The notes beneath the pieces are model-generated. The model had not been told where the DNA came from. It did no database searches and was given only the letters and a program-made list of their open reading frames with translations. Positions 1 to 15,048 of a stretch of 39,361 nucleotides of DNA are shown here, in pieces. Made by a program: the position numbers and the translations under genes. Every line of letters begins with the position of its first letter. The stretch's first letter is position 1. This DNA is from Aquimarina litoralis. GTDB taxonomy: Bacteria > Bacteroidota > Bacteroidia > Flavobacteriales > Flavobacteriaceae. The stretch spans positions 13,272-52,632 of the forward strand of contig NZ_WEKL01000004.1 of the NCBI RefSeq assembly GCF_019295435.1, in the 5' to 3' direction.

Positions 1-38
1 ATTTTATTCAAAATACTGTTAAAAACCAATAATTCTCA

Positions 39-125
39 CAACTTATTAACACTACAACGTTGTAGTAAAATTTCTTATAGTAACATTCCCTACTCTTTTT
101 ACACTGGATAGTAGTAGTATACTAT
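39..125 (+). promoter_or_regulatory. Duplicated upstream region of the first peptide gene (copy A)
   Basis: This stretch aligns with 747-833 upstream of the second peptide gene. The first 23 bases (CAACTTATTAACACTACAAC followed by GTT) are identical in both copies, and GTAACATT and TAGTATACTA are also shared. It holds a perfect 16-bp palindrome at 51-66 and a second palindrome, TAGTATACTA, at 115-124. The distance to the start codon is similar in the two copies, so a shared promoter/operator is the simplest reading. No clean TAnnTTTG element was found. Confidence 0.6.
51..66. promoter_or_regulatory. 16-bp perfect palindrome, candidate operator
   Basis: ACTACAACGTTGTAGT is its own reverse complement. 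The equivalent site at 759-774 keeps it with one change (ACTACAACGTTTTAGT). A dimeric regulator site is plausible. The regulator is unknown. Confidence 0.5.
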
Positions 126-159
126 GATCAATAATTATTAATTTTTAACAAGTAAAATC

Positions 160-393
160 ATGAAAAAAAAGTTTTTATCTAAAATTAAAGATGCTAGATT
201 ATTAAACAAAGAAGAAAGTAAAACAATTTCTGGAGGATATGGCAATGGAAATGGCGTTGGTCCATTATGTGGTTTACCTTTATGTAAAAACACCTATTAT
301 AATGTATCACTTCCTAATTGTTCTTATGCAAATGGCAAAGTATTTTTTGGGCAAACTCATTTCAATTCGACAGAATATTGTGAGATCTTATGA
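160..393 (+). CDS. Double-glycine-leader peptide precursor 1 (four-cysteine core)
   Basis: This is a 77-residue precursor. Residues 1-26 are a leader ending ...ESKTISGG, the type cleaved after Gly-Gly by C39 peptidases, and it resembles the Bacteroidota GG-leader natural-product precursor family (TIGR04149-like). The predicted 51-residue core begins YGNGNGVG and has Cys37, Cys42, Cys54 and Cys74. It shares the C-x-L-P-x-C element and the x4/x11 spacing with the second precursor at 865. Matching leader and core spacing support a real gene despite the small size. The neighbouring C39 ABC transporter and HlyD adaptor are the likely maturation and export machinery. A terminator at 468-500 makes it a separate transcript. 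Activity (bacteriocin, signal or other) cannot be read from the sequence, and no immunity gene is recognised. Confidence 0.85.
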   Translation: MKKKFLSKIKDARLLNKEESKTISGGYGNGNGVGPLCGLPLCKNTYYNVSLPNCSYANGKVFFGQTHFNSTEYCEIL

Positions 394-467
394 TCTAGGA
401 AATAATTCTAAGTTTTTGCTTCTAAGTTTTTTTTATGGGAAACAATGAAACAAGTACTGGATTTAAA

Positions 468-500
468 GTAGGTTAGTATCTCACTAACCTGCTTTTTTTT
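468..500 (+). terminator. Rho-independent terminator after peptide gene 1
   Basis: A 10-bp stem (GTAGGTTAGT / ACTAACCTGC, one G-T pair) with a 5-base loop is followed by eight T residues. It lies 75 bases after the stop codon and separates peptide gene 1 from the peptide 2 operon. Confidence 0.85.
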
Positions 501-746
501 AGAAATCATAGTTGAGCTACTTATTTTAAAGAACATAAAAGATTCATTATCAAATTAAATAGCGGAATATAATCATAACACAAAGGCTTCAATTCATAAA
601 AATCTTAAACTAATTATAAATTATAGAGACTCATAATTTCCCTTTTTCTCAAATTTTGAGCGGACATCAGAATCTCAATCTAACAAAATACTACCCCAAA
701 ACCTTATTTCTTGATTGAAATTATGTTAAAACAACAACATATTTCG
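501..746. other. AT-rich spacer between the two peptide genes
   Basis: No reading frame with a recognisable start, leader or domain is seen here. It separates the terminator of peptide gene 1 from the duplicated promoter of peptide gene 2. I see nothing else in it. Confidence 0.6.
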
Positions 747-833
747 CAACTTATTAACACTACAACGTTTTAGTAAATTTTCTCCCCGTAACATTTTTCT
801 CTTTACACGTATTATATAAGTATAGTATACTAT
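747..833 (+). promoter_or_regulatory. Duplicated upstream region of the second peptide gene (copy B)
   Basis: This is the second copy of the region at 39-125. The near-palindrome ACTACAACGTTTTAGT is at 759-774 and the perfect palindrome ATAGTATACTAT is at 822-833, 31 bases before the ATG. Conservation of both elements while the intervening bases drift suggests function. It would drive peptide 2 plus the glycosyltransferase gene, and perhaps the export genes. Confidence 0.6.
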
Positions 834-864
834 CAAATCATTATTAATTTAAAATCATTTAAAA

Positions 865-1089
865 ATGAAAAAATCGGAAATTTTAGGAAAAATCAAAGAT
901 GTTCGACTTCTTAGCAGAGTTGAAAGCAAATCAATCTCTGGAGGATATGGCGGATATGACCTTCCTACTTGTAATTTACCTAGATGTGTACATGGATGGT
1001 ATCCTTTACCTGACTTAACTTGCGACTTTGCTCCTGCTTATATGGGATCAATTGGCGGAGGTAGATATGGGAAATGTCTTTCATATTAA
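865..1089 (+). CDS. Double-glycine-leader peptide precursor 2 (four-cysteine core)
   Basis: This is a 74-residue precursor and paralogue of the one at 160. Its leader (residues 1-27) shares KIKD-[AV]-RLL...ESK-[ST]-ISGG with peptide 1. The 47-residue core begins YGGY and has Cys36, Cys41, Cys53 and Cys71, giving C-x4-C-x11-C-x17-C. The first three cysteines have exactly the spacing of peptide 1. An aromatic pair (WY here, YY in peptide 1) sits four and five residues after the second cysteine. The glycosyltransferase-like gene starts 19 bases after the stop, so the two are almost certainly co-transcribed. This makes peptide 2 the likelier substrate if modification occurs. Disulfides, glycosylation or both are possible; none is proven. 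Confidence 0.87.
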   Translation: MKKSEILGKIKDVRLLSRVESKSISGGYGGYDLPTCNLPRCVHGWYPLPDLTCDFAPAYMGSIGGGRYGKCLSY

Positions 1090-1108
1090 GTCAATATCTT
1101 AAGCACTT

Positions 1109-2398
1109 ATGAGTATAAAAATCATTCAAAGTTTTTGGACTAAACCTTTTTTAGAACAAAACGATGACGAAAGTGCAAGGTTTAAGGCAGGTTGGTCTAG
1201 CACCAACCTGTTCTTTTACAGCGCTTTATTGAGTTGTTTAACTTTCAAAAAACATTATGGAAATGTAATTATGTATACGGATAAATATGGAAATGAATTA
1301 TTAAAAGAAAAATTAGGCATACCATATACAGCAGTTTATAAAGATTTAGAGCAATTGCATGATTACCCTTCAGGCCTATGGGCTTTAGGTAAGATCTTAT
1401 CATATTCCTTACAAGATAAACCCTTTATCCATGCTGATACTGATGTTTTTATATGGAAACGTTTTCCTGAATCATTCATTAGCAAAGATTTATTTTTCCA
1501 AAATGTAGAGTTTAATTTTCCGAGATACAAAGAAGTCTTAGAAGTGATTTTACGTGAGTTTATAAATGTTCCTGAAACATTAATCAAAGAATATCTAAAA
1601 AATGGAAATATTAATGCATTTAATGCAGGTGTGATTGGTGGAAATAACACTTCTTTTTTTAAAGAACTGGCAAAACAAGTATTCCCATTCGTGAATGATA
1701 ATCTTCTTCATTTAAGCAAGGTAGATCAAGGAATCTTTAATATGATATATGAGCAAATGTTGGGCATGAACCTAGCTCTTGAAAACAACTTAAGTACGAA
1801 TGCTCTTTATAAAGAGATGAGTCCTTCTTTCTCTAAAGTAATGCGCTTTCAACTAATTCCAGAAAAAGAATATTATATTCATACCGTAGGACATGGAAAA
1901 AAATCTCCTGTAGTTCAGGAACAAATTGAAGCAAGACTACGGTACGAATTTCATGACGAATATTATAACTTGAAAGAATCATTAGATAAGAATGGATTAT
2001 CCGATAATGATTTTAAAGGTGTAACTGAAAAACGTTTCCAATATCTAAAAAAACATTTTGATTGGTTAAAAAATACTTCCTGGAATGAAAAAATGAACAC
2101 TAAATTCATCCTAAACCCAAATATAACTTGTCGGGAAAATGAAAATAATGAGGTAGTGCTGTATTATAATTCTCCACAAGAGTTAAAAGACACATCTTTC
2201 ATTGTAGAAGATTGGGACTTTTTTCTTTTCTATTTTGAAGAAGCAAATTCGATAAAAAATGCTGCATCCGAAGCATATGCTAATGAATCTATATCCTCTC
2301 AAATGAGCAAAGAACAATTAGAAGAACGTTTATTTTCAATGGTAATGGATCGATGTATGTTTAATGAAATTTTGCTATTCTACGAGTCCGTGAAATAA
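1109..2398 (+). CDS. GT-A-like glycosyltransferase family protein (DUF6734-like)
   Basis: This 429-residue cytoplasmic protein has no signal or membrane segment. Residues 107-115 (IHADTDVFI) contain an acidic DxD motif at D110-T111-D112, as in metal-dependent GT-A glycosyltransferases. Residues 171-178 (FNAGVIGG) match the NAG-x-x-G element seen in GT8/GT77-like folds. It resembles Bacteroidota proteins annotated as DUF6734, a family assignment made from memory. It starts 19 bases after precursor 2 and precedes the export genes, so modification of the precursor peptide with a sugar is the attractive inference. A role on a surface glycan is the alternative. Donor, acceptor and activity are unknown. 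The C-terminal third (about 300-429) is helical and charged with no motif I can name. Confidence 0.75.
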   Translation: MSIKIIQSFWTKPFLEQNDDESARFKAGWSSTNLFFYSALLSCLTFKKHYGNVIMYTDKYGNELLKEKLGIPYTAVYKDLEQLHDYPSGLWALGKILSYSLQDKPFIHADTDVFIWKRFPESFISKDLFFQNVEFNFPRYKEVLEVILREFINVPETLIKEYLKNGNINAFNAGVIGGNNTSFFKELAKQVFPFVNDNLLHLSKVDQGIFNMIYEQMLGMNLALENNLSTNALYKEMSPSFSKVMRFQLIPEKEYYIHTVGHGKKSPVVQEQIEARLRYEFHDEYYNLKESLDKNGLSDNDFKGVTEKRFQYLKKHFDWLKNTSWNEKMNTKFILNPNITCRENENNEVVLYYNSPQELKDTSFIVEDWDFFLFYFEEANSIKNAASEAYANESISSQMSKEQLEERLFSMVMDRCMFNEILLFYESVK

Positions 2399-2755
2399 GT
2401 AAATACCTTTTAAAGGCACATAACATATCTATAATATTTGAATATCTTCATTTTTAGGATTTACATTATGAAAAACATCAGAATAAAGATTTCAGAATAA
2501 TAAAACTTTTTACACCTAAAACCTCATCTTTTGTAAACAACTTAATTACAAATATTTACGACCTAAAAATCGTTTAAAGAACCATTTTTAGATAGATCTG
2601 ATGATACAAAAAGTAATTTTTAAAGGGTAACAAAACACCTACTAAATAAACTAATATATATAGACAATTAAGCAACAAGGATGAGTTTGATAGTAAAATC
2701 GAAAAGATTTACTTTTCTTTGTAGAACAACTCATCACTCATAATTAAGACTTTTA
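2399..2755. other. Non-coding gap between glycosyltransferase and ABC transporter genes
   Basis: This 357-base AT-rich gap has no credible gene; the longest ATG-initiated frames I noticed are about 10-20 codons and lack features. Its end holds the nested inverted repeat at 2680-2735. A promoter for the export genes may lie here, but I could not identify one confidently. Confidence 0.55.
2680..2735 (+). promoter_or_regulatory. Nested inverted repeat ahead of the ABC transporter gene
   Basis: The outer arms GATGAGTT (2680-2687) and AACTCATC (2728-2735) enclose inner arms AGTAAAATC (2692-2700) and GATTTACT (2706-2713). No T-run follows, so it is not a classic terminator. It ends 20 bases before the transporter ATG, where it could act as an RNA leader hairpin. 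Confidence 0.4.
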
Positions 2756-4960
2756 ATGCCAAAATTTCCTTTTTACAAACAAGCCGAATCTAAAGATTGT
2801 GGACCTACTTGTATAAAAATTATCGCCAAACATTACGGAAAAGTATTGAACACTCAAAAACTAAGATCTCTTAGTGAAACTACTAGAGAAGGAAGTTCAT
2901 TATTGGGTTTAAGCGAAGCCGTAGAGAGCATAGGATTTAGGTCTTTGGGTGTAAAGCTATCTTTGAATCAATTATTAGAGGTTCCTTTACCTTGTATAGT
3001 ACATTGGAACAAAGTACATTATGTAGTAGTTTATAAAGTAAAAACGACTAAAAAGAAAGGCATGAAAATTTATGTGTCAGATCCTGCACATGGACTGATT
3101 ACATATACACAAGAAGAATTTATTAAAGCTTGGATTGGTAACAATGCAAATGAAACTACAGAAGAAGGTGTTGCATTATTAGTAGAACCTACTCCTAAGT
3201 TTTATAGTGATAATGTGGATGAGGAAGACGAAGAATTTGGATTCAAATTTATTTCAAAGTATCTCTTTAAATACAAAAAGTTCATTTTTCAACTTATTTT
3301 AGGACTAACAGCAGGAAGTTTACTGCAATTGATAACTCCTTTCCTTACACAGAGTATTGTTGATGTAGGTATTAAAAATGAAGATATTAATTTCGTATAC
3401 TTGGTTCTAATAGCACAACTATCCTTATTTATAGGGCGTACATTAATTGATGTACTAAGAAGTTGGATTTTATTGCATTTAAGTACCAGAATTAATATCT
3501 CGCTTATATCTGATTTCTTTATCAAATTAATGAATCTTCCTATCTCCTATTTTGATGTAAAAATGACTGGAGATTTATTACAAAGAATAAATGATCATAA
3601 AAGAATAGAACAAATACTTACCATGTCATCATTAAATGTGTTGTTCTCCATGGTAAATTTAATCGTTTTTAGTATTGTTCTTATCTACTATAGCTTTTCT
3701 ATATTCTCCGTTTTTGCAGTTGGTAGTGCCATCTATTTTGCCTGGATACTTATTTTCTTTAAAAAACGTAAAAAATTAGACTACAAGCGTTTCTCTCAGA
3801 TCAGTGAAGAACAAAGTAAGGTTATTGAATTGGTAAATGGGATGCAGGAAATAAAATTGCATAATGCTGAGAAAAGAAAGCGATGGAATTGGGAATTTGT
3901 GCAAGCCAAGCTTTTCAAAATATCTATTGAGAACTTAGCGCTAGAACAATATCAAAGTGTCGGTTCTGCTTTTATTAATGAACTAAAAAATATACTAATC
4001 ACTATTCTTTCGGCGGTACTAGTTATTGATGGAGATATTACATTGGGTATGATGCTTGCCATCACCTCGATCGTTGGGCAATTAAATGCTCCTATTACTC
4101 AATTAATTAATTTCTTAAGAGAGTTGCAAGACGCTCAAATTTCCTTAGAACGTTTAGGAGAAATTCATAACAAAGAAGATGAAGAGAAATCAGGAGATGA
4201 AAAAATAAGAGAAGTACCTCAAAATTCAGGGTTTGAAATCAATAATCTTAGTTTTAGATATGTAGGATCAGACAAACCGGTATTACAAAACTTAAATCTT
4301 TCTATTCCAGCAAATAAAATTACGGCAGTTGTAGGTGTCAGTGGTAGTGGTAAAACTACGCTAATGAAGCTACTTTTGAAGTTTTACGATCCCGATGAAG
4401 GTCAAATTTTTATCGGTTCTCATGATTTACAACACGTATCTCAAAAGGCATGGAGAGATCAGTTTGGAGTTGTAATGCAAGAAGGATATATCTTTAATGA
4501 CACTATTGCTAATAATATTGCGGTTGGCGAAGACTATGTGGATAAGAAAAAATTAGCACATGCAGTGGATGTGGCGAATATTAAGGAATTTGTAGAGTCC
4601 TTACCATTATCTTACAACACAAAAATAGGAATGGAAGGTGTTGGTCTTAGTACTGGTCAAAAACAAAGATTATTCATCGCTCGTGCAGTTTATAAGAATC
4701 CAAAATTCCTGTTCTTTGATGAAGCTACTTCTGCATTAGATGCCAACAATGAAAAGGTAATCATGGAAAAACTAGACACCTTTTTTAAAGACAAAACAGT
4801 TATGGTTATCGCACATCGATTAAGCACCGTTAAAAATGCTGATCAAATTGTAGTATTGGATAAAGGAGAAATAATTGAAGTTGGAAATCATGAATCTTTA
4901 ATTAAAGAAAAAGGAAGCTATTATAATTTGGTTAAGAATCAATTAGAACTCGGTAAATAA
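2756..4960 (+). CDS. Peptidase-domain-containing (C39) ABC exporter
   Basis: This is a 734-residue inner-membrane exporter of the PCAT/LagD type, which cuts double-glycine leaders and exports the core. Residues 1-150 are the C39 peptidase: Cys15 in QAESKDCGPTC, His88 in VHYVVVY and Asp109 in SDPA form the expected catalytic triad. Residues about 165-460 are the transmembrane domain. The C-terminal ATPase has Walker A GVSGSGKT (527-534, K533), signature LSTGQ (631-635), Walker B with D655-E656 and the H-loop His687. Length and domain order are normal and all key residues are present. The two upstream GG-leader precursors are its obvious substrates, and the HlyD-type protein at 5398 is its likely adaptor. 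Confidence 0.95.
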   Translation: MPKFPFYKQAESKDCGPTCIKIIAKHYGKVLNTQKLRSLSETTREGSSLLGLSEAVESIGFRSLGVKLSLNQLLEVPLPCIVHWNKVHYVVVYKVKTTKKKGMKIYVSDPAHGLITYTQEEFIKAWIGNNANETTEEGVALLVEPTPKFYSDNVDEEDEEFGFKFISKYLFKYKKFIFQLILGLTAGSLLQLITPFLTQSIVDVGIKNEDINFVYLVLIAQLSLFIGRTLIDVLRSWILLHLSTRINISLISDFFIKLMNLPISYFDVKMTGDLLQRINDHKRIEQILTMSSLNVLFSMVNLIVFSIVLIYYSFSIFSVFAVGSAIYFAWILIFFKKRKKLDYKRFSQISEEQSKVIELVNGMQEIKLHNAEKRKRWNWEFVQAKLFKISIENLALEQYQSVGSAFINELKNILITILSAVLVIDGDITLGMMLAITSIVGQLNAPITQLINFLRELQDAQISLERLGEIHNKEDEEKSGDEKIREVPQNSGFEINNLSFRYVGSDKPVLQNLNLSIPANKITAVVGVSGSGKTTLMKLLLKFYDPDEGQIFIGSHDLQHVSQKAWRDQFGVVMQEGYIFNDTIANNIAVGEDYVDKKKLAHAVDVANIKEFVESLPLSYNTKIGMEGVGLSTGQKQRLFIARAVYKNPKFLFFDEATSALDANNEKVIMEKLDTFFKDKTVMVIAHRLSTVKNADQIVVLDKGEIIEVGNHESLIKEKGSYYNLVKNQLELGK

Positions 4961-4962
4961 TT

Positions 4963-4987
4963 TTGAATTAAGAATTACGAATTATAA
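4963..4987. repeat. Left inverted-repeat flank of the four-helix gene
   Basis: The AT-rich sequence around AATTACGAATTATAA is, in reverse complement, nearly identical to the right flank at about 5342-5362 (shared core AATTCGTAATTC-N-TAATT). It begins two bases after the stop codon of the ABC gene. Confidence 0.6.
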
Positions 4988-4992
4988 TCTAA

Positions 4993-5358
4993 ATGAAAAA
5001 AGACAATATTGTTCAAAAAAAGAGTTATGAATTTGCCTTATTATGTATTCGCTTATTTCAAAAATTAACAAAAGAACAACATGAATATATTTTATCAAAA
5101 CAGGTTTTACGAAGTGGAACTTCTATAGGAGCAAATATTGAAGAGGCAATTGGAGGTCAAAGTGCTAAAGATTTTTTATCCAAATTGTCTATTTCTTACA
5201 AAGAAGCTCGAGAAACCCATTATTGGTTAAGACTACTTAGAGATAGTCATTACATTAGTAATGATGAAAGTAAAAGTTTAATCGAAAAATGTGAAGAATT
5301 ACTTAGAATTATTGGTTCTATTCAAAAAACCACCAAATTAAAAATTCGTAATTCGTAA
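4993..5358 (+). CDS. Four-helix bundle protein (TIGR02436 / 23S rRNA intervening-sequence family)
   Basis: This 121-residue, all-helical soluble protein carries the family hallmark motif SGTSIGANIEEA (residues 43-54) and an acidic helix containing YKEARETHYWL. Members occur in 23S rRNA intervening sequences and as free-standing genes in Bacteroidota; their cellular role is not established. It sits in the same orientation between exporter and adaptor genes. AT-rich inverted repeats flank it, and the right one includes its own last codons, so it looks like a cassette inserted into the export operon. A helical bundle of about 100 residues also recalls class II bacteriocin immunity proteins, but the sequence motif points to the intervening-sequence family, so immunity is only speculation. 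Confidence 0.85.
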   Translation: MKKDNIVQKKSYEFALLCIRLFQKLTKEQHEYILSKQVLRSGTSIGANIEEAIGGQSAKDFLSKLSISYKEARETHYWLRLLRDSHYISNDESKSLIEKCEELLRIIGSIQKTTKLKIRNS

Positions 5359-5382
5359 TTGATAATTTGCAATTTATAATTA
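5339..5382. repeat. Right inverted/direct-repeat flank of the four-helix gene
   Basis: It contains tandem AATTCGT units (AAATTCGTAATTCGTAATTG) and then diverged AATTTGCAATTTATAATT. It overlaps the stop codon of the four-helix gene and mirrors the left flank at 4963-4987. Confidence 0.6.
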
Positions 5383-5397
5383 CATAGTTATAAAAAA

Positions 5398-6693
5398 ATG
5401 CCAGATAATTTAGACGACATACAGTTAAGGAGTGAAGAAGTTCAGGAAATTTTAACTCGTGTACCACATTGGATGATTCGATGGGGTAACTTATTAATTT
5501 TAGTATTAATATTACTTTTATTGTTTCTTTCTTGGATGCTAAAATATCCTGATACGATTCCTGCACAAGCTATTATCACAACAGATGTACCTTTGCAAAA
5601 GGAACAAGCTAATGTAAGCGAAAAAATACAAGCTATCTTTGTAAAAGAAGGAGATACAGTACCAGAGGGAACTCCTTTAGCTATTCTTAGAAACACTGCC
5701 AATTATCTTGATGTCTTTAGTCTGAAACGAGTGATTGACACTATTACCATTAATAATCGTCAGATTGAATTTCCTTATGAAAAAATGCCAATATTAGAAT
5801 TAGGAGATATCCAAACAAGCTACGCAACATTTGAAAATAGTTACATCGAATATATTTTAAATAAAAAATTACAACCTTTTTCTGATGAAAATTTAGCCAA
5901 TCAAGTGTCTTTAACAGAACTTACCAGAAGACGAGAAAGTATATTAAGTCAAAAAAGATTAGAAGGTGGCGCCCTAAATTTTAGAAAGAAGGATTTTGAT
6001 AGGCAACAAGAGTTATTTGATAAAGGAAGAATTTCTCAACAAGAATATGAACAAGCAAAGATTGAATATTCTCAATTCGAAAATAATTATAAAAATTACG
6101 ACACTCAACTTTCTCAAATAAAAGAGCAAATTAGTAATGCACAAAAAACATCTAAAGGGACAGAATTTAATCAACAGCGTGAAGAAATAAGTCTTCGTAA
6201 TAAAGTAATTCAATCCTTTGATCAATTGAAAAAGAGTATCAAAGATTGGGAACTTCGTTATTTACTACAATCGGATATAGAAGGACGAGTTTCATTTTCA
6301 AACTATCAATTTGAAAATGAAAATGTTACTGCTGGAGATGTTGTTTTTATTGTGATTCCTATACAGGAGTCTTTATCTTATGTTGCTAGAATTAAAGCAC
6401 CGACTCAAAATTCTGGAAAAATAAAAATTGGTCAAAAAGCGAATATTAAGCTTGAAAATTTTCCTGATGATGAATTTGGAATGTTACAAGGTGAAGTAAG
6501 TTATATTTCTATGTTACCTGATAAAGATGGATTATACCTTATACGTGTAAAACTGCCTAAGAAATTAATTACTACCTACAACAAAGTGATACCTTTCCAA
6601 CAGGAAATGAGAGGTTCGGTTGAAATCATTACAGAAGATTTACGTCTTATAGAACGTTTCTTCTATCAGTTTAGAAGTTTAATGGATAAATAA
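5398..6693 (+). CDS. HlyD-family secretion adaptor (membrane fusion protein)
   Basis: This 431-residue adaptor has an N-terminal cytoplasmic segment, one membrane helix at about residues 31-50 (LLILVLILLLLFLSW) and a periplasmic remainder. A lipoyl-like half follows the helix (AIFVKEGDTVPEGTPLAIL), then a long coiled coil (about 160-290, rich in Q, E and K). A second barrel half (about 295-400) leads to the C-terminus. This is the usual layout for the periplasmic partner of C39 ABC peptide exporters. It would link the transporter at 2756 to an outer-membrane channel encoded elsewhere. The gene ends 2 bases from the end of the convergent kinase gene, leaving no space for a terminator between them. 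Confidence 0.92.
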   Translation: MPDNLDDIQLRSEEVQEILTRVPHWMIRWGNLLILVLILLLLFLSWMLKYPDTIPAQAIITTDVPLQKEQANVSEKIQAIFVKEGDTVPEGTPLAILRNTANYLDVFSLKRVIDTITINNRQIEFPYEKMPILELGDIQTSYATFENSYIEYILNKKLQPFSDENLANQVSLTELTRRRESILSQKRLEGGALNFRKKDFDRQQELFDKGRISQQEYEQAKIEYSQFENNYKNYDTQLSQIKEQISNAQKTSKGTEFNQQREEISLRNKVIQSFDQLKKSIKDWELRYLLQSDIEGRVSFSNYQFENENVTAGDVVFIVIPIQESLSYVARIKAPTQNSGKIKIGQKANIKLENFPDDEFGMLQGEVSYISMLPDKDGLYLIRVKLPKKLITTYNKVIPFQQEMRGSVEIITEDLRLIERFFYQFRSLMDK

Positions 6694-6695
6694 GT

Positions 6696-8699
6696 TTAGG
6701 CTGCTTTAGGTAGCGTAATACAAAATACACTTCCTTTACCCAAGATACTTTCAACTTGAATTTTACCTTGATTCAATTCTATAAGTTCTTTGCATATTTT
6801 AAGTCCAAGACCTGTACCCGTTTCATTTTCTGTTCCTTTTGTTGTAAAGGTATCTTCGGCAAATAATTTATTGAGATTGGCTGGATCGATACCTACTCCT
6901 GTATCCTCGAAACATATCTCATAATAATCTTCTTTTTCTTTAGCTACTAAAGCTATGGAATCGCCAGGATTACAAAATTTAATTGCATTTGCGATCAGAT
7001 TCTGTGCTACAATCCCAAACATATCTTTATCGGCAAAGATAATTGTGGGAGCTAATTTATTTATTAATTGAATGTCTTTCTTTTCAGCTTTTGGCTCAAA
7101 AAAGGAGAATTTATCAGTTATCACCTCATTGATATCAAAACTTACCGGTTTTGCATTCAGCTCTTTCATTTGGGACTTAGACCAATTCAAAAGGTTATTC
7201 AGAAGAATTGAGGTTTGGTGGGTTCTATTAGCTAATAGTGGAATTATTTCTTTAAATTCTTGATTAGAAATTGCATTATCTTTTAAAAGGTTCAGACTAC
7301 CATCCAACCCTAAAATTTCATTTTTTAGATCATGAGAAATAATAGAGAATAACTTATTTTTTGTCTCATTTGATTGATTCAGTTCTAAAATTAGATTTTT
7401 CCGATCTTTTCTAGTTTTAAAAATCATCATCAAAAACGCCAAAACTGCAATTAAAATAGCAATAGAAGCTACGGTAAACGTTTTATATCTAAATAATTTT
7501 ACTTCACTCTCTCTTTCTTTTCTTTCATTTTCATCTATCATTTTTAGGTGCTCAATTTCTGCTTGATGCCTCTTCTCTGCTCTTTGAATTTTTTCTGCCG
7601 AAATTTTCACCCTTTTCTTCTCCGAAAGTTCTTGAGATCTTTTCTGCCAGGCAAGTACCTTGTAGATATTGCCTTGTACGGAATCTAACTTAGCTGCGAT
7701 TTTATAATTTGCAATTAAATGCTCTGTAGGATCTATATCCTTTAAAGCTAAAAACTCTTCTCTGGCATGCTGTAAGAGGTCTGCTGATTTTTGATATTGT
7801 TTAGTTTCTAAAGCTATTTTTGCCATTTGCTGTTTAGAAATTATCAAGGGAATTGTGAGGGCAAAATTTTTAGTTTTAGCTCCTATATTCAATACTGTAT
7901 CGTAATATTTTTCCGAAATTCTATATTCTTTTTGATGCAATGCAATTTTAGCAAGGATATAATACGAATAGATCGTATATACGGGTAAACTATCATTTCT
8001 ATTTATATCTAAAGCAACATCAACAATTTCTTTTGCTTTTCGAGGCATTTTATGATTAATATACAGATAGGATAAATTGTTCATAAAAAGACCAATTCCT
8101 TTTTCGCCTTTTATATTTTTCATTTGTTCTATAGCCTTCTTGTAGTATTGTTCTGCTAATTCAAAATCTTCTAATTTAGAATATAGATCTCCCAAATAAT
8201 TATTCACTCGCGCAATACCATTTTTATCACTAATCTCTTTATAATATGTTTGAGATTCTAATAAATACTCTGCAGCTGCGGTTAAATTATCGCTATAATA
8301 TTCCAGAAAATAAAGGTTTTTGTAGGCAACGGCAAGACGCTTTTTATCTTTTAACTTTTTTAAAATCTTTATTGCCTCTTTATAACTTTGGCCAGCATAG
8401 AAATATTCATTTTGTTCACTGTAAGCTTCTCCTTGACTTATAAAAGCATCACTTAATATTAATGAATCTTTATATTTTCTAGCAGCTACAATAATTTTTT
8501 TTGAAAGAAAAAGCGCACTATCATTTTTTTTAGCAGCGATTAAATGATCCAGAAACTGTTGTGCTTTCAGCAATTGTTCGGTTCCTTCTATAGTTTCTTG
8601 AGCCCATATGTTATTAACACTATTTTGACCGTAAATAACAGATAGGCAACTACTTAAAAAGATAGCTAAGTAAATAATATGTCGGCAAAATGTATTCAA
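6696..8699 (-). CDS. TPR-sensor histidine kinase 1
   Basis: This 667-residue kinase starts with a signal peptide (about 1-24, ending YGQ). A periplasmic helical TPR array follows (about 60-350), then a coiled coil, one membrane helix at about 405-427 and a cytoplasmic kinase core. The phospho-acceptor is His456 in SHDLKNE. The ATPase domain has the N-box NLIANAIKF, the G1 box EDTGVGI and the G2 box GTGLGL. All catalytic motifs are intact. It is the first of three tandem paralogues (next at 8773 and 10967) with kinase cores far more alike than their TPR sensors. No receiver or DNA-binding domain is fused and no response regulator lies in the window, so its partner is unknown. Input is probably a periplasmic ligand or protein. 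Confidence 0.9.
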   Translation of the reverse strand: MNTFCRHIIYLAIFLSSCLSVIYGQNSVNNIWAQETIEGTEQLLKAQQFLDHLIAAKKNDSALFLSKKIIVAARKYKDSLILSDAFISQGEAYSEQNEYFYAGQSYKEAIKILKKLKDKKRLAVAYKNLYFLEYYSDNLTAAAEYLLESQTYYKEISDKNGIARVNNYLGDLYSKLEDFELAEQYYKKAIEQMKNIKGEKGIGLFMNNLSYLYINHKMPRKAKEIVDVALDINRNDSLPVYTIYSYYILAKIALHQKEYRISEKYYDTVLNIGAKTKNFALTIPLIISKQQMAKIALETKQYQKSADLLQHAREEFLALKDIDPTEHLIANYKIAAKLDSVQGNIYKVLAWQKRSQELSEKKRVKISAEKIQRAEKRHQAEIEHLKMIDENERKERESEVKLFRYKTFTVASIAILIAVLAFLMMIFKTRKDRKNLILELNQSNETKNKLFSIISHDLKNEILGLDGSLNLLKDNAISNQEFKEIIPLLANRTHQTSILLNNLLNWSKSQMKELNAKPVSFDINEVITDKFSFFEPKAEKKDIQLINKLAPTIIFADKDMFGIVAQNLIANAIKFCNPGDSIALVAKEKEDYYEICFEDTGVGIDPANLNKLFAEDTFTTKGTENETGTGLGLKICKELIELNQGKIQVESILGKGSVFCITLPKAA

Positions 8700-8772
8700 T
8701 ATAGTATTCTAAATATTGTGTAAACATATCAGCCCCTTTTAGATTATCCCTCTAACCTTAAATAATTTTTGA

Positions 8773-10749
8773 CTATGCTGCTTTTGGTAATTGCACGCAG
8801 AATGTACTTCCTTTTCCTAAAATACTTTCTACCTGTATTCTCCCTTTATTAAGTTCTATAAGTTCCTTACATATTCTTAAACCAAGACCGGTTCCTGTTT
8901 CATTCTCTGTTCCATTAGTAGTAAATGTATCTTCGGCAAATAATTTATTGAGATTAGCTGGATCTATTCCTACTCCAGTATCTTCAAAACAAATCTCATA
9001 ATGGTCTTCTTTCTCCCTAGAAACCAAGGCAATAGAATCACCAGGATTGCAAAATTTAATAGCATTCGCGATCAAATTTTGTGCTACGATTCCAAACATA
9101 TCCTTATCGGCAAATATCATAGTCTGATCTAATTTATTAATCAGTTGAATATCCTTTTTCTCCGCTTTTGGTCTAAAAAAGGTGAATTTATTACTTATCA
9201 CCTCTGTTATATCAAATTTTACTGGTTTAGGGTTCAACTCTTTCATTTGAGATTTAGACCAGTTTAAAAGGTTGTTTAAAAGAATTGAAGTTTGATGGGT
9301 TCTATTAGCTAACAAGGGTACTATCTCTTTAAATTCTTCTGCAGAAATTATATCTTCTTTCATCAAATTCAAACTACTTTCTAAACCATGGATTTCATTT
9401 TTCAAATCGTGCGAAATAATAGAAAAAAGCTTGTTCTTAACCTGATTTGATTCATTAAGTTCCTGAATATATCTTTTTCTTTCTTTTCTAGTTTTTATAA
9501 TTAAAAACATAAACACTAAAATCACAGCAATTACGGCTAAACTGATAAATGCCAGAAGTCGATACCTAAATAATTCTTCTTTTGTTTTTTGTTCTCTTTT
9601 TTCCTTTTCGTCTATTAATTTAAGTTGTTCTAGCTGTGCTTCGTATCTTGATTTAGTATTTTCAACTTTCTTTGTTGTTAAATCATTCATACGCTTATCA
9701 GAAAGCTCTTGATATTTTTTTTGCCATCCAATTGCTCCCAGCAAATTACCTCTTGTAGAATCAAGCTTAAATGAATACTTATAGTTTTTAAGTATTAATG
9801 AAGTAACATTTGACTTGATAAGATCTTCTCTTGCCACTTTCAAGTATTCTTCTGCTTTTTTATACTCATTTTGCTCCAAAGCAATGATTCCTAATTGTTG
9901 CTTGGCATTCATCACGATGATCTTAAAATTAGCTTGCGTACCTACACATTGGGTAGTATCGTAAAATCTTTTAGCTTTTTCATATTCTTTATTATACATG
10001 GCCACTTTTGCCATGATACTATAGGATTGCGCCGTATGTCGTGTATCATTTTCCGCCTTATTGACCACGATAGCTTCTTCTAATAGCTTCTGAGCTTCTT
10101 TTAACTTTCCTCCTTCTGTATACAACAAGGCCAAATTATTAATTGTTAAACCAACACCTTTAGTTTTCAGTCTTTTACTCAGATGCATTGATTTCAGATA
10201 AAATTTCTCGGCATTTGGAATATCATTCAATTCCTTATAAATAATCGCTAGGTTATTATAAGCAGCGGCAAGTCCAATACTATCTTTTAATTGCTCTCTA
10301 AGCAATTTAGCATCCAACAAGTGATCTGCTGCCAGTTCTATATTACCCTTGTTACGCTCTATAATATATCTATCATTACAGACCATAGCCAATCCATTTT
10401 TATCTTCTACTTTTTTAAAATAACGTGTAGCTTTTTCAAAGTTTTCATCAGACTCTAGATACTTATTCAGGTCATTATCTATGACTCCTTTTAATCTGTA
10501 TACAAAGCCTAATCCTTGGGTATATTCGATGTCATTTGCTATTTCGATTAATTGATCAGCTAAAGGTTCCGCTATATCAAAGCGATCCTCGTCTACAAAT
10601 TGCTGTAGCTTATTTACTTTACTATTAAATAACAAAGAATCTTTTAGTGTCTTAATTTGGGTAAGATCAATTCCAGTGAGTTCGGTTTGCGAATAGCAAA
10701 AAGAACTCATGACTGAGAAAATTAATACGGTGACGATTGCTTTATTCAT
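8773..10749 (-). CDS. TPR-sensor histidine kinase 2
   Basis: This 658-residue paralogue has the same architecture: signal peptide MNKAIVTVLIFSVMSSFCYS, TPR array, membrane helix, dimerisation helix with His447 in SHDLKNE, and ATPase domain. The frame is open to 10827, but I chose the ATG at 10749. That start begins directly with a good signal peptide and gives the same length as its paralogues; the longer form would add 26 residues ahead of it. Its last 110 residues are nearly identical to kinase 3 (VSREKEDHYEICFEDTGVGI is shared). It ends 73 bases before kinase 1, without a visible terminator, so the two may be co-transcribed. Confidence 0.9.
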   Translation of the reverse strand: MNKAIVTVLIFSVMSSFCYSQTELTGIDLTQIKTLKDSLLFNSKVNKLQQFVDEDRFDIAEPLADQLIEIANDIEYTQGLGFVYRLKGVIDNDLNKYLESDENFEKATRYFKKVEDKNGLAMVCNDRYIIERNKGNIELAADHLLDAKLLREQLKDSIGLAAAYNNLAIIYKELNDIPNAEKFYLKSMHLSKRLKTKGVGLTINNLALLYTEGGKLKEAQKLLEEAIVVNKAENDTRHTAQSYSIMAKVAMYNKEYEKAKRFYDTTQCVGTQANFKIIVMNAKQQLGIIALEQNEYKKAEEYLKVAREDLIKSNVTSLILKNYKYSFKLDSTRGNLLGAIGWQKKYQELSDKRMNDLTTKKVENTKSRYEAQLEQLKLIDEKEKREQKTKEELFRYRLLAFISLAVIAVILVFMFLIIKTRKERKRYIQELNESNQVKNKLFSIISHDLKNEIHGLESSLNLMKEDIISAEEFKEIVPLLANRTHQTSILLNNLLNWSKSQMKELNPKPVKFDITEVISNKFTFFRPKAEKKDIQLINKLDQTMIFADKDMFGIVAQNLIANAIKFCNPGDSIALVSREKEDHYEICFEDTGVGIDPANLNKLFAEDTFTTNGTENETGTGLGLRICKELIELNKGRIQVESILGKGSTFCVQLPKAA

Positions 10750-10797
10750 ACTATTTACTTTGGGGCTTAAATCAGATGAAATGCGTATTATTTTCAA

Positions 10798-10860
10798 CAA
10801 AATACACAAAAATATATCAAAATACAAAATATAGTAATCCTATTCTTACATTTATTTTAT
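10798..10860 (-). promoter_or_regulatory. Upstream region of kinase 2, duplicated ahead of kinase 3
   Basis: The block is alignable with 12987-13049 upstream of kinase 3; both have ACACAAAAA and TATTCTTACA in the same order and spacing. Read on the - strand it contains TATTTTTG (10814-10807), a match to the Bacteroidota TAnnTTTG -7 element 58 bases before the start. No well-spaced -33 element was found. Confidence 0.45.
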
Positions 10861-10966
10861 TAAAATTAACATCTATATATAAATCAGCCAATATTTATAA
10901 TCAACTGATGTACAAAAGGTTTAAAAAAAGGCATGTGATTTCTGTATTTTCTTAGTTTATTGCATA

Positions 10967-12940
10967 TTATGCAACTTTGGGAAGCGATATGGAAAACGTA
11001 CTTCCTTTTCCTAAAGTACTTTCTACTTTAATATTTCCTTTATTAAGTTCTATAAGTTCTTTGCAAATTCTAAGTCCAAGACCAGTTCCTGTTTCATTCT
11101 GAGTACCATTTGTTGTAAATGTATCTTCAGAAAACAATTTTTTAAGGTTATCTGGATCTATTCCAACTCCGGTATCTTCAAAACATATCTCGTAATGATC
11201 CTCTTTTTCTCTTGAAACTAATGCTATAGAATCGCCAGGATTACAAAACTTTATCGCATTTGCAATAAGGTTTTGAGCTACTATACTTACCATATCCTTA
11301 TCTGCAAAAATCTTAGTAGTATCTAAGTTATTAATAAGTTTAATATTTTTCTTCGCAGCTTTAGGTCTAAAGAATGCAAATTTATTAGATATGACTTCCG
11401 TAATATCAAAAGATATTGGTTTTGCATTTAGCGCCTTCATTTGTGATTTTGACCAATTTAACAAGTTATTCAGCATAATCGATGTTTGATGCGTACGATT
11501 GGCAAGTAAAGGAAGTATCTCGTCAAACTCAATCTTAGAAATTGTATTTTCATTTAGTAATTTTAAAATATTATCTAAACCAGAAACTTCATTCTTTAAA
11601 TCATGAGAGATTATGGAGAATAACTTATTTTTCACCTGATTAGATTCATTTAATTTTTTAATAAGTCTTTTTCTTTCTCTTCTATTTCTTATTATAATTA
11701 CTAAAATAATCGATATTCCTATCAAAACACCAAGTGTAAGAAAAGTAAACATCCTATACTTAAATAATTCTGTTTTAGTCTGTTGTTCTCTTTTTTCTTG
11801 GGCATCAATCATTCTTAAATTTTCAAGTTCGGCTTTATACCTTGTCTCTGCTCTTTCCATCTTCTTTGTGGACAGTTCTATCATTCTCTTATTCGAGAGT
11901 TTTTGGTGTTCTTTTTGCCAAGCCAAAGCTCCTGCGAGATTTCCTCGTGCAGAATCTAATTTTGAAGAAAATTGATAATTTTTCATTAACAACTGTACCA
12001 TTCCATGGTCTTTAGATTCCTTTCTAGCTGCTGTCAATAACTTTTCTGCTTCTTTATAATTCTTCAACAACATTGCTAGGTATCCGAGTTGCTGTTTATT
12101 ATCTACGGTAAGAAGATCAAAATTCGTATCCTTTGAGATTGATAATGATGTTTCATAATATTCTTTCGATTTTTCATAATCTTTCTCATATAGTTCTACT
12201 TCTGCCATAATACTATATGTATGCGCGATAGAAGCATTAATACTGTCTTTCATATTAATTGCTAATGCCTCTGGCAGCATGGCTCTAGCTTTTTTAGGTT
12301 TACCATTTTGCAAATAAATGAATGCAAGATTATTCATAACCATTCCAATATTATGAAGCATCCCTATTTTTTTTCTGGTCATAATCGCTTTATCAAAATA
12401 CCTTTCAGACTCCTCTAGATTATCTAAACCAGCATAATGACTTGCTAGATTATTATATATAATAGCCAAACCAGCACTATCTCTTAATTTTTCATTATAC
12501 ATTTTTGCCTCTAACAAGTAGTCTACACTTTTTTCAACATTACCACGATGACTTTCTAGCACAGATCTAGTATTGAAAACATCTGCCAAGCCTTTTATAT
12601 TATTGCTTTTTCTAAAACTATTTTCTGCATTTTCATAGCTTCTTATAGCTTTTAGATATTTTTTAGTTCTTTTGAATAACCGACCTTGAATTAAAAATAA
12701 TTCCCCAAGACCATTATCATAATTTAATTCTTTACCTTTTTCAATTAGACCTTGAGAAAACTTTACCGCCTCATCAATCTTCTTATCTTTAATCAGCTTA
12801 TTAAGAGAATCAATTTCTTCTCTAAATTGTAACGTATCGATTATATGCTCAAAATTGTGAGAGGGAACATAACCATTCTCTTGGGCAAAAGTGTACCCTT
12901 GGAGAAGTATTATAACGATGGATAAACGAATTTTCTGCAT
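10967..12940 (-). CDS. TPR-sensor histidine kinase 3
   Basis: This is a 657-residue kinase with signal peptide MQKIRLSIVIILLQGYTFAQ, several TPR units (about 60-330), one membrane helix (about 394-418) and His446 in SHDLKNE. A complete ATPase domain follows (NLIANAIKF, EDTGVGI, GTGLGL). It is the most diverged of the trio in the dimerisation helix (NEVSGLDNILKLLNEN), while its ATP-binding half is almost that of kinase 2. It is separated from kinase 2 by 217 bases that carry the kinase 2 promoter region, so it is probably its own transcript. No cognate regulator is encoded nearby. Confidence 0.9.
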   Translation of the reverse strand: MQKIRLSIVIILLQGYTFAQENGYVPSHNFEHIIDTLQFREEIDSLNKLIKDKKIDEAVKFSQGLIEKGKELNYDNGLGELFLIQGRLFKRTKKYLKAIRSYENAENSFRKSNNIKGLADVFNTRSVLESHRGNVEKSVDYLLEAKMYNEKLRDSAGLAIIYNNLASHYAGLDNLEESERYFDKAIMTRKKIGMLHNIGMVMNNLAFIYLQNGKPKKARAMLPEALAINMKDSINASIAHTYSIMAEVELYEKDYEKSKEYYETSLSISKDTNFDLLTVDNKQQLGYLAMLLKNYKEAEKLLTAARKESKDHGMVQLLMKNYQFSSKLDSARGNLAGALAWQKEHQKLSNKRMIELSTKKMERAETRYKAELENLRMIDAQEKREQQTKTELFKYRMFTFLTLGVLIGISIILVIIIRNRRERKRLIKKLNESNQVKNKLFSIISHDLKNEVSGLDNILKLLNENTISKIEFDEILPLLANRTHQTSIMLNNLLNWSKSQMKALNAKPISFDITEVISNKFAFFRPKAAKKNIKLINNLDTTKIFADKDMVSIVAQNLIANAIKFCNPGDSIALVSREKEDHYEICFEDTGVGIDPDNLKKLFSEDTFTTNGTQNETGTGLGLRICKELIELNKGNIKVESTLGKGSTFSISLPKVA

Positions 12941-12986
12941 AGTCTTGAATTTTGGACGAATCAGACAAAAAATATAATTTAATCCT

Positions 12987-13049
12987 CAAAGTACACAAAA
13001 AAGCATATAAAATCAAAATATTGTAGTTTTATTCTTACAAATTTTTATT
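12987..13049 (-). promoter_or_regulatory. Upstream region of kinase 3 (copy of that ahead of kinase 2)
   Basis: It shares ordered blocks with 10798-10860 (TACACAAAAA, ATATTGTAG-like, TATTCTTACA). The paralogous genes therefore duplicated together with their control region, or the region is kept for co-regulation. No exact TAnnTTTG element is seen in this copy. Confidence 0.4.
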
Positions 13050-13080
13050 GTTTTACCGTAAAATATGATTTATTCTATAC

Positions 13081-13115
13081 AAAAACAGCCTTTCAACTTA
13101 CGAAAGGCTGTTTTT
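13081..13115 (-). terminator. Terminator of the DUF885 gene
   Basis: A 14-base perfect stem (AAAAACAGCCTTTC / GAAAGGCTGTTTTT) has a 7-base loop and five T residues on the - strand side. It lies 24 bases after the stop codon of the gene at 13139. Confidence 0.85.
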
Positions 13116-13138
13116 ATCTTATTATTAATATACGCGTC

Positions 13139-15019
13139 TTATTGTAAACTTTCTGGGAGTTTCTGAACATCCGTCTTAGACTCTATCCATTCATCCACTA
13201 ATTCTTCTAATATTGTAAGTGGTACAGCTCCATTAGTTAAAATAATATCATGAAACTCTCTAATATCAAATACTTCATTTCCTAATTTAGTTCTAGCTTT
13301 TTCTCGTAATTCTAGAATTTTATTCATTCCTATCTTGTAGGCAGTAGCTTGTCCAGGCATTACAATATGACGTTCCACCATTTTCACAGCATCGCTTTCT
13401 GCATTTGGTGTATTATCGGTATAATACTTTATTCCTTCTTCTCGTGTCCATTTTTTCGCGTGTATTCCTGTATCCACAACCAATCGACAAGCTCTCCATA
13501 ATTCCATAGCCAATCTACCGAAATCAGAATACGGATCATTATATAAGCCTATTTCTTTTGGCAAAAACTCATTATACAAGCCCCAACCTTCAATATAAGC
13601 AGTATATCCTCCAAATTTTCTAAACTTAGGGATATCCTCTAATTCTTGGGCAATAGAAATTTGCATATGGTGCCCTGGAATACCTTCATGATAGGCAAGC
13701 GCTTCCATTTGATATATTGGCATCGCTTCCATATCATACAAATTAGCGTAATAAGTACCTGGCCTAGATCCGTCAGGAGTTCCTTGTTGGTAAAAAGCTT
13801 TTCCTGCACTTTTTTCTCTAAAGGGTTCTACAGCTTTCACAACAATATCAGCTTTAGGTTTTGTAATAAAAAGCTCATCCAATCTTGATTTCATATTATT
13901 GATTAAACCTGTTGCTCTTTTTAAATATTTAGCTCTTCCTTCTTTATCATTTGGATAATAAAATTTTTCATCCTCTTTCATGAACTTAAAAAAGTCTTGT
14001 AAAGAACCTTCATATTTGAGCTCTGTCATAATATCTTTCATTTCCTTATGGATTCTTGCTACTTCATCTAATCCCAATTGATGAATTTCATCTGCTGACA
14101 TATCTGTAGTGGTAGTTCTCATTAGGGCGTTATTATAGAATGCGGTTCCTTTTGGAAATTTCCAGGCACCATCATCAACAGTAGCTCTTTGCTGCTGATC
14201 TTCTAACAAGTGGATCAATTTATCATAAGCAGTTTTTACATCTTCCCTTAATGCATTTTCAGCTTGAGTAATTAAAGCAATTTTGTCTTCTTCAGAAATC
14301 TCAATTTTTTCTATTTTTTCTTTAAAATCAGCCAATAACGTGCTCTCATTATTTGATTCATCAAATGGTTTACCTGTAATCAAATTACGACAATCATTCA
14401 ATACCTTAGGAAAAACAAACTTTGGAGGAACAATACCATTCTTTTCTCTAATCTTGATATTCTCTATTTGCTGCGTAAACAACTCATCTATTCCTTTCAA
14501 TCTGGAAATGTAAGCTTCTGCATCACTTTTGTTTTCTATTTGATGCATATTGATCAAAAATGCAGGTATTTCAGCCTGCATTCCATACATTTGATTCACT
14601 GGATAATCATAAAACCTGTACTGAAAATCTTGTATGCTATTTTCGAGATCCTGTATCATTAAACGATAACTCAAACTAGTTGCCTTATTCAAATACTCTA
14701 TATCTACAGAGTCCTTCAAATATCGTAACCTCTTTTTTGACTTGTCCATATCATGCACAAGTTTTTTAGAGGAGATATCATCCCATTTTCCATAATCATC
14801 AGTTTTTACTCCTAAATATGTCTGCATCATAGGAGAGTCATCAATTTCTTCTTGAAATTGTGTTTCAAACCAATCATTTAGTTTTTTAGAATGTTTTTCT
14901 ATCTTTTGTTCATCTGAAATTTCTGGTATGATCTCTTTACTTTTATTTTTACAACCAACAATTACAAATAAGAAGGAAAAAAATATCGAAGTGATCGAGG
15001 TGATTTTTGTTCTACTCAT
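13139..15019 (-). CDS. DUF885-family lipoprotein, putative zinc peptidase
   Basis: This 626-residue protein has a lipoprotein signal (ITSIFFSFLFVIVGCKNKS, lipidated Cys about residue 23). The DUF885 hallmark HEGIPGHH lies at residues 444-451, and EGWGLYNE follows about 35 residues later. That pair gives the His and Glu ligands expected of a gluzincin-like metallopeptidase. Family members are full-length at about 550-620 residues, so this looks complete. It probably acts at the cell envelope on peptides. The CocE/NonD hydrolase lies 29 bases upstream on the same strand with no terminator between, suggesting a two-gene unit for extracytoplasmic peptide or ester hydrolysis. Substrate is unknown. 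Confidence 0.88.
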   Translation of the reverse strand: MSRTKITSITSIFFSFLFVIVGCKNKSKEIIPEISDEQKIEKHSKKLNDWFETQFQEEIDDSPMMQTYLGVKTDDYGKWDDISSKKLVHDMDKSKKRLRYLKDSVDIEYLNKATSLSYRLMIQDLENSIQDFQYRFYDYPVNQMYGMQAEIPAFLINMHQIENKSDAEAYISRLKGIDELFTQQIENIKIREKNGIVPPKFVFPKVLNDCRNLITGKPFDESNNESTLLADFKEKIEKIEISEEDKIALITQAENALREDVKTAYDKLIHLLEDQQQRATVDDGAWKFPKGTAFYNNALMRTTTTDMSADEIHQLGLDEVARIHKEMKDIMTELKYEGSLQDFFKFMKEDEKFYYPNDKEGRAKYLKRATGLINNMKSRLDELFITKPKADIVVKAVEPFREKSAGKAFYQQGTPDGSRPGTYYANLYDMEAMPIYQMEALAYHEGIPGHHMQISIAQELEDIPKFRKFGGYTAYIEGWGLYNEFLPKEIGLYNDPYSDFGRLAMELWRACRLVVDTGIHAKKWTREEGIKYYTDNTPNAESDAVKMVERHIVMPGQATAYKIGMNKILELREKARTKLGNEVFDIREFHDIILTNGAVPLTILEELVDEWIESKTDVQKLPESLQ

Positions 15020-15048
15020 TTTCTTGGGGATTTAAATGGTTTGGTAGT

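Follow-up and report, generated by a model that had tools for sequence, protein, structure and literature searches.

Organization of the locus

The window, by which we mean the whole 39,361-nucleotide stretch of Aquimarina litoralis DNA that was analysed, carries near its beginning two genes for short peptide precursors, A and B, followed by a DUF6734 gene, an ABC exporter with a C39 peptidase domain and an HlyD-type adaptor (Table 1). The leader of precursor A is MKKKFLSKIKDARLLNKEESKTISGG and that of precursor B is MKKSEILGKIKDVRLLSRVESKSISGG. The core of A is spaced C-x4-C-x11-C-x19-C and that of B C-x4-C-x11-C-x17-C; both contain CxLPxC, and the positions +4/+5 after Cys2 are YY in A and WY in B. 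An earlier note on this DNA had reported two GG-leader reading frames with these spacings and motifs, and its coordinates and patterns are exact. The two precursors are 47% identical over residues 2-58 of A (E 1.5e-9), and the DNA upstream of them is homologous, 121 of 160 positions being alike (76%). Judged by these resemblances, A and B are tandem paralogues, and the x4 and x11 spacings that they have in common can be put down mostly to common descent. An AlphaFold model of the precursor is of low confidence (pLDDT 58.5).

Table 1. Features of the window and, in the last line, of three related loci.
Feature	Position	Strand	Remarks
Upstream element AACTTATTAACACTACAACGTTGTAGTAAA of precursor A	40..69	+	16-bp palindrome inside
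Precursor A	160..393	+	77 aa: 26-aa GG leader, 51-aa core, 4 Cys
DUF6734 5' remnant behind precursor A	399..500	+	41% over 34 codons, in-frame stops; DNA alike at 95/140 positions
Same upstream element, before precursor B	748..777	+	one base different
Precursor B	865..1089	+	74 aa: 27-aa GG leader, 47-aa core, 4 Cys
DUF6734 (PF20508) protein	1109..2398	+	429 aa, Pfam E 6.3e-88; proposed peptide-tailoring enzyme
3' tail of VKOR-type oxidase gene	2697..2744	+	16 codons, 81% identity
C39 peptidase-ABC exporter	2756..4960	+	734 aa; Peptidase_C39 E 5.8e-33
Four-helix-bundle / 23S rRNA intervening sequence protein	4993..5358	+	after the exporter, before HlyD; L085 and L092 have it too
HlyD-type periplasmic adaptor	5398..6693	+	
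Hexapeptide-repeat protein	L039:11115-11762, L040:10450-11097, L045:7950-8597		

A gap of 19 bp separates precursor B from the DUF6734 gene. As its DNA reads, the window's cluster is eroded: the DUF6734 gene of precursor A is a remnant and the oxidase gene is reduced to its 3' tail. Comparable DUF6734 remnants lie behind a related precursor in two other loci (L060 and L076), and the oxidase gene is intact at the corresponding place in several relatives, while two (L092 and L093) keep the same tail as the window. The fullest clusters among the relatives contain precursor, DUF6734, oxidase, C39-ABC and HlyD genes in that order; across the 23 named family loci, C39-ABC and HlyD genes occur in 14 each. 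The two features of a C39-exported GG peptide, the GG leader and the C39-ABC exporter, are both present in the window's cluster. In a Peptidase_C39 search this exporter was the only C39-ABC found in the window's genome, the other four matches lying in VKOR-type frames. Three proteins compared with PHROGs had no match there.

Beyond the HlyD gene, five large reading frames follow on the minus strand (6696-16947); the two that were scanned are TPR-histidine kinases, whose best NCBIfam match, to FimS, is far below cut-off. Upstream of some other Aquimarina precursors there is a hexapeptide-repeat transferase-like protein (215 aa in the one scanned), possibly an extra tailoring enzyme.

The peptide family among relatives

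A profile, A3, was built from 24 sequences of precursors neighbouring DUF6734 and run over all collected loci. Its own members and some additional sequences scored E 2e-15 or better, the next match coming only at 6e-6. The family set, taken from reading frames of 40-160 aa at E ≤ 1e-12, comprises 34 distinct precursors, including A and B, from Aquimarina, Flavobacterium, Tenacibaculum, Flavobacteriaceae bacterium RhTr2 and one Cytophagales metagenome-assembled genome (MAG). Two of 32 other Aquimarina genomes have homologues of precursor B (82% and 79% identity); a third genome of the genus (G057) carries one that is almost a copy.

Seen against these relatives, the motif of the earlier note was drawn too narrowly. 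The scaffold C-x4-C-x11-C-x(17 or 19)-C, true of A and B, is exact in only 4 of the 34 members; CxLPxC is found in six, a sub-branch, and the aromatic pair after Cys2 is not general. What is kept is a tyrosine immediately after GG (34/34), C-x4-C (32/34, the six-cysteine members reading C-x3-C-C), an even number of cysteines (34/34, with four in 23, six in nine and two in two) and a second tyrosine in the C-terminal half of the core (33/34, the exception being precursor A, which has Phe there). No hydroxyl residue but Tyr1 is kept in every one of the 34 cores, the inner tyrosine coming next. The family motif, as these sequences define it, is GG/Y...C-x4-C...C...C, where the slash marks the end of the leader; this is the pattern that recurs, while the exact C-x-L-P-x-C-x11-C is local. 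The latter was rejected as a family signature, since it is confined to one sub-branch. Mean pairwise identity is 0.38 for the cores and 0.62 for the leaders. The earlier note took strong divergence of the cores to suggest selection on the scaffold; cores do vary more than leaders, but the spacing common to A and B reflects their descent.

It might be objected that the pattern is trivial, a tandem duplication whose copies have not yet diverged at the cysteines. A and B are indeed paralogues with duplicated upstream DNA; the relatives, however, refute this reading, since the cysteine framework and GG/Y are kept in 34 sequences from several genera and the Cytophagales MAG, and we consider it scarcely credible.

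The family is sparsely distributed. A precursor is present in 12 of 52 Aquimarina genomes, and in 299 Flavobacteriaceae genomes (mostly one per genus) the precursor profile matched at least one, the window's own, a lower bound given that in many of these genomes no more than 19 candidates were scored at first. At E ≤ 0.1 none of the Pfam families was matched by the 24 members, and at E ≤ 10 the same members drew five unrelated weak models, none of them credible. NCBIfam returned TIGR04149 for three of the 24 (best E 0.0043), NF047798 for two and TIGR01847 for one, all weak and of leader type. Searches of Pfam, NCBIfam and the open literature turned up no such family; in the titles and abstract openings of the glycocin, RiPP and bacteriocin literature for Bacteroidetes, Flavobacterium, Aquimarina and Tenacibaculum it is not described. 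The earlier note had not recognised the scaffold. A correction is due here, for the N-terminal C-x4-C resembles the known class IIa box, even if neither a core-only profile nor Pfam ties it to that class. The suggestion made there of a new secreted family, stabilised by disulfides or modification, fits the adjoining C39 exporter and the want of a credible Pfam match, once the motif is widened.

Cysteines and the VKOR-type oxidase

The cysteines come and go in pairs. C1 and C3 are missing together in two of the 34 members, and in nine an extra pair has been gained together, its first cysteine just ahead of C2 and its second not far behind C4; on the DUF6734 tree, which holds the seven of these nine with an adjacent DUF6734, the six-cysteine type takes two changes. 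This paired loss and gain favours the pairing C1-C3, C2-C4 and extra with extra, and we infer that disulfides C1-C3 and C2-C4 are the most likely. It also argues against a free, S-glycosylated cysteine, and the even number of cysteines throughout makes a sugar likelier on oxygen than on cysteine sulfur.

The cluster oxidase (about 520-530 aa) matches VKOR (E 5e-14), Peptidase_C39 (2e-6) and Thioredoxin_4 (0.0024, below its cut-off). Its link with the family is loose: it occurs in 11 of the 23 named family loci, and it is gone from the window though the peptides there keep four cysteines. The proposition that four cysteines require the cluster's own oxidase is weakened by the same observation. 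Four other VKOR matches were found in the window's genome (G000), where four frames of 533-554 aa, on C59, C60, C1 and C85, match both VKOR and Peptidase_C39, one of the latter matches being below cut-off.

Pairing of the precursors with DUF6734

Downstream of all 34 precursors, on the same strand, there is a DUF6734 gene within 1.5 kb, and for 29 of them it is less than 150 bp away, a pairing that is partly by construction because the 80 named loci were collected with DUF6734 as bait and the profile was made from precursors neighbouring it. Five precursors, A among them, have no close DUF6734 copy of their own. Aquimarina offers a less biased check: 24 of 52 genomes have any DUF6734 and 15 have one at E ≤ 1e-80, and all 12 genomes with a precursor fall within these 15. 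Where DUF6734 at this level occurs with no family precursor, two loci (L048 and L059) have, close by on the opposite strand, a GG-type reading frame of a different kind, and in one Aquimarina locus (L047) no GG-type reading frame was found nearby. The pairing was overlooked in the earlier note; it turns the 'modification' mentioned there into a concrete proposal, glycosylation.

Five loci (L077, L078, L079, L080 and L083) carry two tandem precursor-DUF6734 pairs each. The flanks of the Tenacibaculum loci, of which L081, L083 and L102 had their reading frames listed individually, gave no phmmer match (E ≤ 1e-6) to the window's exporter, HlyD or oxidase. The smallest unit observed is a precursor plus DUF6734.

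Core distances follow DUF6734 distances (Mantel r = 0.81, permutation p = 0.001), with r = 0.64 for the leaders (29 pairs). Mapped on the DUF6734 tree, the core types take 5 changes where shuffles take 15.3; the F type, which takes 3 by itself, is not one clade. Such covariation supports a stable pair and not a mechanism, since neighbours inherited together look alike. It is also to be expected of a matched immunity gene, and the peptides might accordingly be unmodified, disulfide-bonded bacteriocins resembling class II, with DUF6734 shielding the producer, for instance through glycosylation of a receptor on its surface. The bacteroidetocins lend this some plausibility since, in the part of the source available, they are described as having a GG leader and four cysteines, as active without modification and as lacking an obvious immunity gene (PMC6671954). 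The smallest unit of precursor plus DUF6734, and the presence of one DUF6734 per core type in the tandem pairs, speak against it, as does the distribution of GG-leader reading frames outside the family with at least two cysteines: 18 in the 434 kb within 2 kb of DUF6734 and 4 in the 795 kb beyond, a density that suits a peptide-acting enzyme. We hold a protective DUF6734 to be unlikely, yet still the alternative to be reckoned with.

A same-strand GG-leader reading frame of that kind was present in 11 of 57 DUF6734 loci outside the family, so that the link to GG peptides is either not universal for the domain or escapes the pattern in many cases. Five Mucilaginibacter loci (L122, L125, L135, L140 and L149) have DUF6734 proteins of about 550 aa just upstream of another type of GG peptide, with cores in TTQQTYC/TLQQTYC or TSYTCC that are similar among species. 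A rumen Bacteroidales locus (L123:3985-5712) combines a GG peptide with a DUF805b-like pattern; a protein there has, as read by eye, a radical-SAM-like CxxxCxxC motif, and DUF6734 and a C39-ABC lie near.

The nature of DUF6734

An AlphaFold2 model of DUF6734, made with 45 sequences, has pLDDT 95.1 and pTM 0.93. Compared with the PDB it gave 71 structural matches at E ≤ 0.001, the top ones including LARGE1, XXYLT1 (xyloside xylosyltransferase 1), UGGT and glycogenin; alpha-1,3-galactosyltransferase and others stand lower among the best 50 of these 71. TM-scores to single glycosyltransferase chains are modest (0.26-0.35 by query and 0.13-0.54 by target, in the best 50 of 71), perhaps owing to an extra C-terminal domain. 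From the model, a GT-A glycosyltransferase fold is predicted with high confidence. Invariant in all 45 sequences are D110 and D112 (DxD), N172, H258 and K264, and also D58 and G174; we take these to represent three motifs of metal-dependent GT8 enzymes, namely DxD, N-x-G and H-x2-G-x2-K. At the level of sequence, DUF6734 and its C-terminal part gave nothing significant against PDB entries, and Pfam assigned the window's protein to PF20508, with two weak unrelated models and no GT2.

Might DUF6734 modify the peptide by some reaction other than glycosylation? A phosphotransferase, CpsY, is among the structural matches, and neither donor nor product can be read from a fold. Glycosyltransferases nevertheless make up 49 of the best 50 of the 71 matches, CpsY being the remaining one, and DxD and H-x2-G-x2-K resemble those of metal-dependent GT8 enzymes; we therefore think another reaction very improbable.

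The predicted topology of the C-terminal part had suggested a RiPP recognition element (RRE), but neither Pfam nor a comparison of profiles supported one: hhalign of this part against a single PqqD sequence, a weak test, gave a probability of 2.4, and seven C-terminal parts had no credible match in Pfam. PqqD is present in one of 100 family genomes. The long forms of DUF6734 have about 130 further residues. DUF6734 is named in no paper of the open literature searched.

Upstream elements and the DUF805b RNA

The palindromic element upstream of A and B was not found elsewhere in the window's genome at up to three mismatches. Most of the relatives (L010, L076-L105) have a GGTTGCGCAACC-like palindrome, further upstream of the precursor than the DUF805b-like motif described next. 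A motif resembling the orphan cis-regulatory RNA DUF805b (RF02914) precedes the start of 17 of the 34 precursors, mostly by about 50 nt, and two further ones have a compensated variant of it. In L078 and L079 the compensated change, upstream of the precursors, is GUC/GAC, which, as read from these sequences, suggests a pseudoknot. Seven distinct DUF805b sites are above the Rfam cut-off in the 17 loci searched; positions 1-7000 of the window had no Rfam match at E ≤ 1, DUF805b being absent there.

Elsewhere in the window's genome there are 13 copies of DUF805b above cut-off (L191-L203). By eye, a GG-leader peptide reading frame lies close behind six of them (L191, L197, L198, L199, L202 and L203), a similar leader with no GG behind two (L195 and L196) and a lipoprotein or signal-peptide protein behind three (L193, L200 and L201), with nothing clear after the other two. 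DUF805b may accordingly regulate genes for secreted peptides. Among the titles that a search of the open literature for DUF805 listed, none concerns this RNA, and its position upstream of about half of the relatives gives it a plausible gene class.

A proposed pathway

On balance we think it probable that the family consists of disulfide-bonded, probably glycosylated, C39-exported peptides resembling bacteriocins; the sugar, the disulfides and the killing are what we infer. A and B may exemplify a novel type of antibacterial peptide that carries sugar. The DUF6734 protein would glycosylate the core, with one sugar or several, ahead of export, as its predicted GT-A fold and tight pairing suggest; precursor A, its own DUF6734 lost, probably shares that of B. 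By analogy with its family, the C39 domain of the exporter would recognise the GG leader and cut it, and the core would leave through the exporter with HlyD. All cysteines would pair, most likely as proposed above, helped in many relatives by the VKOR-type oxidase of the cluster; for the window, oxidation would have to come from elsewhere in the genome. The product would most likely be a bacteriocin against related bacteria, like the bacteroidetocins, given the type of cluster and the divergent cores.

The peptide, glycosylated or plain, could instead be a signal or a surface-acting factor. No immunity gene stood out in the clusters, the window's genome has several other GG-type peptide reading frames, and TPR-type histidine kinase genes flank the Aquimarina clusters, all of which would suit a signal. 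The cores diverge strongly while the leaders are kept, however, as expected of arms-race peptides, and the Flavobacterium and Tenacibaculum loci collected have no TPR-kinase matches save weak ones in L082. A signalling role seems to us doubtful, a shade more so than a protective DUF6734.

Returning to glycosylated bacteriocins, in a bolder version Bacteroidota would have a class of glycosylated ribosomal peptides of its own, with DUF6734, a glycogenin-like transferase, as its founding enzyme; the sugar would go on tyrosine of a disulfide-locked bacteriocin. We regard this version as speculative and rather unlikely in its entirety. Within it, the site would most likely be the tyrosine after GG (34/34) or the inner tyrosine (33/34). 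In other GG-type reading frames of the window's genome, GG is followed in some cases by Asn, Ile, Ser, Thr, Glu or Leu, and since a single C39-ABC was found in the genome, cleavage alone may not demand tyrosine. Two of these other frames (L003 and L197), however, also have tyrosine there, which would count against Tyr1 as the modified residue. Among 21 GG reading frames outside the family in DUF6734 loci, none has tyrosine after GG (eight have Thr, six Ser, three Ala, two His, one Phe and one Arg).

A family tied to a GT-A-like DUF6734 would give this domain a substrate and a testable function, and the tandem precursor-enzyme pairs are natural tests of specificity.

Comparison with known systems

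In leader style the precursors resemble TIGR04149 and other GG precursors known from Bacteroidota, the matches being weak. With class IIa (pediocin-like) bacteriocins they share the GG leader, a tyrosine near the core start and C-x4-C. Precarnobacteriocin B2 is matched weakly by the profile (E 0.016) across the leader end and C-x4-C, a match that is gone with a core-only family profile; none of the Pfam class II bacteriocin models was matched by 24 members. By eye, the YGNGVxCxxxxC box as written is absent from the 34 cores, precursor A having the near form YGNGNGVGPLC. In class IIa the disulfides pair C1-C2/C3-C4, whereas the paired loss of cysteines here suggests C1-C3/C2-C4.

Glycocins (sublancin, glycocin F and enterocin F4-9) are described, in the portions of the literature consulted, as ribosomal peptides with O-linked sugars, S-linked sugars or both, a dedicated transferase and disulfides. 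Their operons encode a GG-type leader, a C39-ABC and a thiol oxidase, and their transferases (SunS/GccA) are of GT2 type; sublancin has an odd cysteine, and this one is S-glycosylated. To our knowledge, the few glycosylated bacteriocins come from Gram-positive bacteria and are made with GT2-type enzymes. The present clusters would follow the same logic, with DUF6734, a putative transferase of predicted GT-A fold, beside the precursor. They differ in phylum, in the enzyme, which is PF20508 and not GT2 and has its nearest PDB folds in LARGE1, XXYLT1, UGGT and glycogenin, and in the cysteines, odd in sublancin and even in 34 of 34 members here.

Within Bacteroidota, glycosylation of peptides has been proposed before: the available text of one paper describes Bacteroidales RiPP clusters in which S-glycosyltransferase domains accompany radical SAM and LanC genes, and assigns glycosyltransferases to the putative clusters BGC3 and BGC9 (PMC10352776). 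In that text these enzymes occur together with other RiPP enzymes, and the term 'DUF' does not occur.

The bacteroidetocins (class IIf, Bacteroidales) belong to the same phylum. In the available part of the source, their unit consists of a five-TM protein, the four-cysteine peptide, a thiol oxidoreductase and an ABC exporter with a double-glycine peptidase; the peptides are active in synthetic, unmodified form, and the word stem 'glycosyl' is absent from the text of the paper (PMC6671954). Phylum, GG leader, four cysteines and the lack of an obvious immunity gene are common to both, and the present family has an oxidase in 11 and a GG-peptidase exporter in 14 of its 23 named loci. Their leaders, as given there, are 15-16 aa, as opposed to 25-27 aa here (counted from an MK start), and no counterpart of their five-TM protein stood out here. 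The peptides described here are closest to two known systems, the glycocins and the bacteroidetocins.
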